From Nitrososphaerota archaeon (GTDB lineage Archaea; Thermoproteota; Nitrososphaeria; Conexivisphaerales; UBA164): a DNA stretch of 64,000 nt. Below, one piece after another: positions 9,296 to 12,820 of the stretch. The notes under the pieces are model-generated. The model saw only the letters and a list, made by a program, of their open reading frames with translations. It made no database searches and was not told where the DNA came from. A program made the translations under genes and the position numbers. The stretch is taken from positions 60,413 through 124,412 of the forward strand of contig JAMCTX010000011.1 in assembly GCA_023381255.1 (NCBI GenBank), written 5' to 3'. The stretch's first letter is position 1. Each line of letters starts with the position of its first letter.

Positions 9296-9922
9296 AAGAG
9301 TTTGCGGTATTGACAGCAACCCTGACGGCTTTGCAGTTGCGATGGTGAAGAATGACGGGAACATCGTTGCGCACAAGTTCTTCAGGGACGACAGGCTTGT
9401 TTATGCTTCTGAGGAAAAGAGGGATAATGTAATAGGCACAATTGTTAAGGGGATAATTGAATATGCCAGGAATAATGATGCTGGAGCAATTGTTATTGAG
9501 AATTTGAACATGAGGGACAACAAGAGCTTTGGGAGGAAGGGGAACAGGATCATCCACGCGTTTGTGAGTAAGAAGTTTGCGGATAACGTAATGGAAAGGT
9601 CATGGAAGGAGGGCGTTCCCGTTTTCACGGTTAATCCAGCTTACACGTCAAAAATAGGTGACAGGAAGTACAGGGAGATGTATGGATTGTCAATACATGA
9701 ATCCGCAGCTTTGTGCATAGGCAGGAGGTTTTACGGTTACGGCGAATGGTTGAACGAGCCGATTGCTGTCGGCAGGCCTAGGGAAAGGGTGCCCGTGCAG
9801 TATGTATGGACATCCCTCTATGGCTACGGCTTCCCAAAGGACCCATACATGGAGCCACCAGGAAGGAAAGGCAGTGTAGAGAAGAACTTGGGGGGCAATG
9901 GTCAAGCCGTCTTCACAGGACG

Positions 9923-10063
9923 CCCCACTGTATGGCCCCTGCTAAGAGATGAGGGGGAGCGAAAGGGTGGGGAGTGCGGTGGAAGTCCGCAGGCTACCGG
10001 CAATGGGGTTAAGCCGGCACCGCAAGGTGGGCAGGTGTGCGCTGCGTCATTGATACACAATGA
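9923..10063 (+). ncRNA. Candidate omegaRNA/structured 3' tail of the TnpB element
   Basis: Consecutive hairpins: CCCCAC(9923)/GTGGGG(9967), TGCGG(9975)/CCGCA(9987), CCGGC(9997)/GCCGG(10013), CACC-GCAA-GGTG(10018-10029), TCATTG(10047)/CAATGA(10058). Confidence 0.5.
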
Positions 10064-10090
10064 TATGCGTTATACCAACCCTATGAACTA

Positions 10091-12820
10091 TTACCTGTAA
10101 TACTGAACCGCGGTTTTTTCTATTGTCTTTCCTTCCCTTGAAGCCCTTACCTTCTTTATAGCTTCTTCAAAGTGCTTTTGACCTATGTAAACCTGTTCAA
10201 GTCCCTTATTGGCATCTTCTAGCGTTTTGTTCTTTTTCAAATGTTCTTGTAGCACTATGGATGTTGCTGTATTTACAACAGATTCAAGGTCAGCACCACT
10301 AAAGTCCTCAGTTTCATCAGCTATCCTCTCTAAGCTCACTTCGTCATCAATATTGCAAAGCCCTTCTGAAACACCCTTTGATGAACAAATAGGCACACCT
10401 CTTGTGTGTATCTTCAGTATTTCTAACCTTGACGGTTTGTCGGGCTTTGGCACATATATCAGCCTGTCAAATCTTCCAGCTCTCAGCAGTGCCGGATCGA
10501 TCATATCAATCCTGTTCGTCGAACCAATTACCACAACGCCATGTAATGGCTCTATCCCATCAAGTTCCGTGAGCAACTGGGAAACAACTTTTTCCGTGAC
10601 GCCACTGTCAGAAGCCATTCCCCTTACAGGTGCTAGTGCATCAAGCTCGTCAAAGAATATTATGCACGGAGCTGCCTGCCTCGCTTTCCTGAAAACTTCC
10701 CTTACCGCCTTTTCTGACTCACCGACCCATTTCGAAAGCAACTCCGGGCCTCTGACGCTTATAAAGTTTGCTTCACTCTCTGTGGCCACGGCCTTTGCAA
10801 GCATGGTTTTTCCTGTGCCAGGCGGTCCATAAATTAAGAGTCCCTTTGGTATTCTGTAGCTAAGCATCTTATAAAGATCAGGAATTTTTAGTGGTAATTC
10901 AACGGCCTCCTTAAGCTCATTCTTGACGTCTTCCAGCCCTCCTATGTCTTCCCACTTTACTTCAGGCGTTTCGAGGTAAACCTCCCTCATTGCCGATGGA
11001 GTGATTCCCTTGAGCGCATCCTCAAAATCCTGCATCTTTACATTAAGTTCTTCTAGAATCTCGGTTGGAATCCTTTCTTCCTCTAAATTTATTTTTGGCA
11101 GAACCCTTTTAAGAGCCTTTATTGCTGCTTCCTTGCACAGATATTCAAGGTCAGCCCCTACAAAACCGTGCGTCTGTGAAGCAAGCCTTTCGATAACCAT
11201 CTTTGGGAGTATTTTCTCTATAGCTTCTATTGCCACCACTTTGCTGGCATCATTATGGCTGTTTTCATTTAATGCTAATACAAAATTTGCAGCATTAACC
11301 TTAATTTTATTCAGTATTTTCTCTATAGCTTCTATTGCCACCACTTTGCTGGCATCATTATGGCTGTTTTCATTTAATGCTAATACAAAATTTGCAGCAT
11401 TAACCTTAATTTCTTTCGAATAATCTGATAAACCAGTTGTATTTGTATTAGGGAGATATTTTTTTAACGCATCCAAGCCAAGCTTTATGCTGTCTTCTGG
11501 AGCGTTGATTTCCGTTAGAGCTGACAGATAATCACCGATTTTTATTTCTAAATTTCCAAGATTAGGGAGATATTTTTTTAACGCATCCAAGCCAAGCTTT
11601 ATGCTGTCTTCTGGAGCGTTGATTTCCGTTAGAGCTGACAGATAATCACCGATTTTTATTTCTAAATTTCCAAGAGTATTAATCGTCTCTGGTGTTAGCT
11701 TGTCTGAATTAATATCTATCCCAGGAAATGGCATATTTCTGGTATGTATCTGTAATATCTCCAGCCTGCCTGTTTTGTCCGGAACCTTTAGTTCAATTTC
11801 CCTATCAAACCTTCCAGGCCTCCTCAGCGCTGGGTCGATGGCATTTGGCCTATTTGTAGCACCGATAACTATCACCTTTCCCCTGGCTTCAAGCCCGTCC
11901 ATCAGGGTTAGCAGCTGGCTTACAACCCTTCTTTCAACCTCCCCTGTAACTTCATCCCTCTTGGGTGCTATTGCATCAATTTCATCTATAAATATTATCG
12001 ACGGCGCCTTCTCCTTTGCTTCCTGAAACTTCTCCCTCAACCTGGCCTCAGATTCCCCGTAGAATTTGCTCATGATTTCAGGGCCTGAAATATGTATAAA
12101 TGTAGCGTTGGTTTCATTAGCAACGGCTTTGGCAAGCAGCGTTTTTCCTGTGCCGGGTGGGCCATAAAGGAGAACACCTTTGGGAGGCTCTATCCCCAGC
12201 CTTTCGAACAGTTCCGGATGCCTCAGCGGAAGCTCCACCATCTCCCTTATCTTTTGTATCTCATCTTTTAGACCGCCTATGTCTTCGTATGTTATCCTGG
12301 GCACACCCTTTAAGCCCTGCCCCTTTCCACTCCTTTCAATTGCCGTCTTCTGATTTATTATAACGGCTTCGGCATTTGCCGGCGAAGTTTGAACTACGTT
12401 GAATGTTATCCTGCCACCAAAATAAGGCACAATAATGTTGTCTCCTTTGACAACCGGAAGCCCTTCCAAGGCATCAGTTATGTACCTTTCATCTATGTAC
12501 GGCACATCCTCAAGCGGCGAAATTATTATCTTTTCAGATGGCACGGCTTTCACTTTCCTTATTGATACATTATCACCGATTGCAACCCCGGAATTGCTCC
12601 TTATCAGGCCATCTATCCTTACTATTCCTCTCCCCTCGTCAGTTGGGTACAGAGGCAAGACCTTTGCCACTGTTTTCCTTTTACCTTTAATTTCAATTAC
12701 GTCGCCGCTCTGCAGGTTCAGCACGTCCATAACTTCATAATCAACCCTAGCTACACCGCGGCCAACATCTCTAGTATAAGCCTCCATTACCTTCAAAGTA
12801 ACAGAGTTAGATTCTGACAT
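10091..12820 (-). CDS. VAT/Cdc48-type AAA+ ATPase with tandem-repeat insertion in the D1 lid
   Basis: Two AAA domains ([63 protein letters not shown]) after an N-domain; insertion between HTRNMPF and THGFVGADL. Confidence 0.95.
11208..11417. repeat. Tandem duplication, 2 x 105 bp (35 aa), in the VAT gene
   Basis: agtattttctctatagcttctattgcc...aaccttaattt repeats with period 105 (11208 and 11313); identical apart from the last few bases. Confidence 0.97.
11447..11674. repeat. Tandem duplication, 2 x 114 bp (38 aa), in the VAT gene
   Basis: attagggagatatttttttaacgcatcc...aaatttccaag at 11447-11560 and 11561-11674, identical by eye. Confidence 0.97.

Follow-up and report, generated by a model that had tools for sequence, protein, structure and literature searches.

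The lid subdomains of Cdc48 link the ATPase cycle to movements of the ring, and as a rule their conservation is strong. A Cdc48/VAT-type gene in which 176 residues occupy the place of a short linker in the first lid raises the question of where such an insertion came from and what it may contribute. The gene lies in a 64-kb stretch of archaeal DNA, referred to here as the window, and all coordinates without a locus label are positions within it. The host assembly comprises 1.28 Mb in 25 contigs and is 85% complete. The features considered are as follows.

10091..12820 (-): Cdc48/VAT-type ATPase gene, 909 aa, with CDC48_N, CDC48_2, two AAA modules and AAA_lid_3
11201..11728 (-): entire D1-lid insertion, residues 365-540, between helices α5 and α6
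11675..11728 (-): head of the insert, resembling the post-α7 linker of the lid by sequence comparison
11561..11674 (-): unit A copy 1, residues 383-420, a strand and two helices (Tandem Repeats Finder, model and letter comparison)
11447..11560 (-): unit A copy 2, residues 421-458, DNA identical to copy 1
11411..11446 (-): linker joining unit A to unit B
11306..11410 (-): unit B copy 1, residues 471-505
11201..11305 (-): unit B copy 2, residues 506-540, 100 bases identical to copy 1
10997..11200 (-): native D1 lid helices α6-α8, residues 541-608, the apparent source of the repeated units

The reading frame 10091-12820 (-) is open from end to end and encodes a complete protein with both repeat pairs in frame. 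Pfam identifies CDC48_N (106.5 bits), CDC48_2 (55.4 bits) and AAA in two stretches, and by this domain order, CDC48_N and CDC48_2 followed by two AAA modules, the 909-aa protein is assigned as a Cdc48/VAT, a double-ring type II AAA ATPase. The catalytic motifs (Walker A/B, arginine fingers and pore loops) are intact in both D1 and D2 of the translation, which contains GPPGTGKT twice, IIFIDEID and KWVG. The best PDB matches are 5g4f and 5g4g, both VCP-like ATPases, and a fold search with the full-length model returned p97/Cdc48 chains for all of its best 50 matches, a result that is uninformative on the insert. Two more Cdc48-type ORFs (746 and 714 aa) are present in the host genome, as are two free-standing short proteins consisting of CDC48_N and CDC48_2 only (L006 1501-1974 (+) and L007 1501-1971 (-); ORFs of 166 and 172 aa). 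An ORF at 9342-10100 (+), by eye a transposase of the TnpB kind, overlaps the end of the VAT gene by 10 bases.

The short α5-α6 linker replaced by the insert is typical, but not defining, of the Cdc48/VAT D1 lid, and relative to the orthologue from a genome of the same genus (G001) the protein is 172 aa longer (909 vs 737 aa). The first-pass annotation had described an in-frame D1-lid insertion made of two tandem duplications and had proposed that the doubling was recent, and both points are supported; its further suggestions of ongoing copy-number change and of an essential ATPase gained no support here, the latter in view of the two additional Cdc48-type ORFs. Tandem Repeats Finder reports a period of 105 bp at 11208-11412 and of 114 bp at 11447-11675, each with 2.0 copies and a 100% match. 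Compared letter by letter, the 114-bp unit yields 115 identical bases and the 105-bp unit 100, the preceding 5 bases differing between the copies (GAAAG and GAATA). There are 0 differences in the 215 bases compared between copies (95% upper bounds of 0.014 per base and 0.065 per synonymous site), while dS between the window gene and its G001 orthologue is ~0.85-0.94; from this contrast, the doubling is recent relative to the species split, or conversion keeps the copies identical. The third and last tandem repeat of the window has an 18-bp unit, and 391 kb of the host genome (a 327-kb sample of stretches plus the window), which holds no Ns, yielded no other tandem repeat whose period exceeds 30 bp, so that the insert repeats do not reflect a genomic background.

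We compared the gene with those of relatives in one family: the window genome (G000) and G001, which share a genus (g1), three genomes of genus g2 (G002, G005 and G007) and four of genus g3. Those of the relatives with names are Nitrososphaeria MAGs, one of them labelled Conexivisphaerales, and the host is placed in the Nitrososphaeria, probably in the Conexivisphaerales, and not in Thermoplasma. In all three g2 genomes, the protein has 821 aa and carries a 104-aa insert at the same site, with units A and B present once each, whereas G001 and the four g3 genomes have an ordinary short linker in close variants of one sequence. This distribution is new, and it differs from the pattern of identical repeats fixed in all relatives that the first-pass annotation had set against its own reading. 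That annotation overlooked that, from the sequences compared here, the insert predates the duplications and its two unit types share homology with one another as well as with the native lid. An insert profile searched against 400 genomes of the class gave strong matches confined to G000 and the three g2 genomes, and no additional insert-bearing genome was detected among these and 398 genomes of the phylum. No relatives of the insert were found in phages or viral contigs, and we found no published work on the lid insertion. Immediately upstream of the VAT gene in g2 is an ORF that by eye resembles a small heat-shock protein (L064 2558-3070 (+)).

The homology of the units is likewise new and points to the source of the insert. 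Units A and B of g2 align with each other (score 68, p ~1e-8), and within its own protein the g2 insert matches the neighbouring D1 lid best (Z 9.7), pairing GLEALRKCIPNIDIDSSR---DSLNGIEVNAADFINAIKE with GMKALKRILPKINLETDQIPTEILNSIRVIQDDFQNAFKE in register across 40 residues; the D2 lid was not matched in the same search. With a lid HMM restricted to insert-less VATs (the rows of alignment A2 minus the window protein), the g2 insert scores 39.6 bits and the window insert 29.3 bits, against 11.3 bits for the best of 2000 shuffles, and three segments of the insert fall at lid positions 34-63, 25-63 and 20-34, in lid register. Seven weak insert-profile matches from the searches of class and phylum were inspected, and six of them likewise lie on or beside VAT lids. 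Based on the HMM scores and these weak matches, we read the insert most simply as an old duplication of the lid within itself, with a second, recent doubling in the window genome, the copied part being most simply the post-α7 linker, α8 and the C-terminal part of α7, placed between α5 and α6. Pfam AAA_lid_3 does not match the insert; this family stops halfway through the lid and is therefore blind to such an origin. In an ancestral insert-bearing lineage, today seen in g2, part of the D1 lid (post-α7 linker, α8 and the C-terminal half of α7) would have been tandemly duplicated into the α5-α6 loop and would have diverged into the helical-hairpin units A and B.

How the insert reached the window lineage is a separate matter. 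Trees of the N-terminal and C-terminal halves of the protein agree, joining G000 with G001, then g3, then g2, and the short insert-less linker, being common to the outgroups, is on this evidence ancestral. The window insert is AT-rich, with a GC of 0.35 and a GC3 of 0.28 vs 0.46/0.42 in its flanks, the GC3 lying under the first percentile of comparable coding stretches in the window. Given that the g2 inserts have a GC3 in line with the flanks of their own genes, g2 itself is, by composition, not a recent donor. Distribution and composition together suggest lateral acquisition from an unsampled donor, or allele exchange. An insert present in the family ancestor and then lost in G001 and g3 is also conceivable: the class and phylum searches confine it to this family, its 54% identity to the single-copy g2 insert fits an old split, and DNA identity between G000 and G001 shows no drop over a longer tract near the insert such as a long replacement would leave. 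However, G001 and g3 have the canonical LADDVDLEKIA-type linker of the outgroups, which two losses would each have had to restore, and the low GC3 also speaks against vertical descent, which we consider unlikely while granting it an appreciable chance. Lateral acquisition or exchange is favoured because of this double restoration, and the window lineage would thus hold a diverged, AT-rich and probably laterally acquired insert, whose units A and B each underwent a further doubling in recent times.

Whether the insert does anything for the protein can be approached through its evolution. In g2, dN/dS of the insert is ~0.05-0.11, a value that exceeds that of the flanks and is well under one, which is the signature of purifying selection. 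The half of the protein comprising the lid and D2 has evolved faster in the window protein than in G001 (15 vs 4 unique changes; branch lengths of 0.082 vs 0.025), which could reflect co-adaptation or relaxation and is also compatible with a protein that is relaxed or partly degenerate. This acceleration, the AT-rich composition, the lack of an insert in the same-genus relative and the occurrence of unrelated insertions at the equivalent D2 loop of other proteins would all fit non-functional padding, in which repeats grow neutrally in a permissive loop and serve no specific role. Such a reading is rather improbable, as the insert has been kept in three g2 genomes at the dN/dS given above, and both lineages maintain the frame and the helix periodicity.

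The doubling itself might have been introduced by assembly, the real gene being single-copy as in g2. Two perfect tandem pairs inside 470 bp of a draft in 25 contigs, 85% complete, invite this suspicion, as do the single copies of the insert-bearing relatives. However, both periods are multiples of three (a chance of ~1 in 9) and the frame remains open, the breakpoints coincide with the unit boundaries, the 391 kb surveyed contain no comparable repeat and no Ns, and the differing bases before the 105-bp copies (GAAAG vs GAATA) are left unexplained by a plain unmerged overlap. We regard an artefact as distinctly unlikely and a genuine doubling of the units as the better account.

A foreign domain rather than the lid as the source, for example the C-terminal region of an oxidoreductase, is very improbable, given that the Pfam OxRdtase_C match on one g2 insert (26.8 bits, cut-off 26.3) is marginal, spans 44 aa, falls below the cut-off in a sibling g2 insert, is gone in the window genome and is outscored across three segments by the lid profile. 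Other candidates were rejected. PDB sequence matches of the insert are mostly to designed repeat proteins, with single stretches that are not significant, and were attributed to chance; no intein family was returned by Pfam, the insert consisting of lid-like helical repeats instead; and a ClpB/ClpC M-domain is not indicated, the predicted helices being mostly of 9-15 residues (low to moderate confidence) with no family match.

In an AlphaFold2 model of the full-length protein (20 sequences, mean pLDDT 75), every unit comprises one short strand and two helices, and the final unit continues into the native lid. The pLDDT of the insert is only ~50-70, and the insert folded alone gave a mean of 49, which is unreliable; given these low values, the geometry of the array is uncertain. 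With moderate to low confidence, we infer that the insert probably folds as a short array of strand-helix-helix hairpins that projects from the lid next to the D1 ATPase. By analogy with Rix7 and the Clp M-domains, its role is most likely that of a helical arm on the D1 lid providing a contact or regulatory surface. Such an arm would most likely add contacts to the neighbouring protomer, the N domain or a partner, tuning ring stability or ATPase coupling, and would take no part in catalysis. Taken as a whole, the account of a lid-derived elaboration of D1 in a Cdc48/VAT unfoldase, laterally acquired, redoubled and serving as a contact or regulatory arm, seems to us moderately probable.

Lids with zero, single and double copies of the units, all in frame in close relatives, form a natural series for testing to what extent added lid helices are tolerated, or put to use, by a hexameric unfoldase. 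If the modelled arm is correct, this is a case of an ATPase lid growing through copying itself, with a helical arm made from its own helices and recently redoubled in the window genome. Insertions elsewhere in VAT-type proteins were also observed. In family f7, two proteins (L065 from G056 and L066 from G028) carry ~170 aa between α5 and α6 of the D2 lid, with Cys motifs on either side of a DnaJ (J) domain (Pfam 35.8 and 31.7 bits) that contains the HPD motif, and at the same D2 site L067 (G036) shows a Cys motif in duplicate, CPSCKKSKKEHSENELEN / CPICAKSKEGHSENELEN. In Candidatus Scotarchaeum otlingeri (L049), the VAT frame extends to 1185 aa, and D1 is by eye interrupted following GES by a long intein-like stretch. 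The α5-α6 loop is indicated as a site for adding regulators, and we speculate, with considerable doubt, that it is a growth point, at which some Nitrososphaeria extended D1 by repeatedly copying lid helices, the product passing between lineages as a lateral module, while the equivalent D2 loop of others gained a J-domain with Cys motifs or a duplicated Cys motif, each acting as a built-in regulator or recruiter.

Compared with known systems, the window protein shares with VAT the N domain, D1, D2, Walker A/B motifs, pore loops and arginine fingers, but VAT and, g2 excepted, all further archaeal orthologues in which we read the linker have a short α5-α6 connection where the window protein has 172 extra, apparently lid-derived residues. 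In ClpB, Hsp104 and ClpC, the M-domain is a helical arm inserted into the lid, the small subdomain, of the first ATPase ring, where it governs both activity and assembly, and an arm in the first-ring lid is likewise what we propose for the window insert; the M-domain differs in being a long coiled coil of separate origin, in which we saw no sequence relation to the insert. Rix7 resembles the window protein as a double-ring AAA ATPase with extra lid helices, and deletion of its D1 insertion helix causes a moderate growth defect in yeast (PMC6355894). The insertions of Rix7 are short and follow α7 (PMC6355894), whereas the window insert lies between α5 and α6 and consists of repeated lid units.
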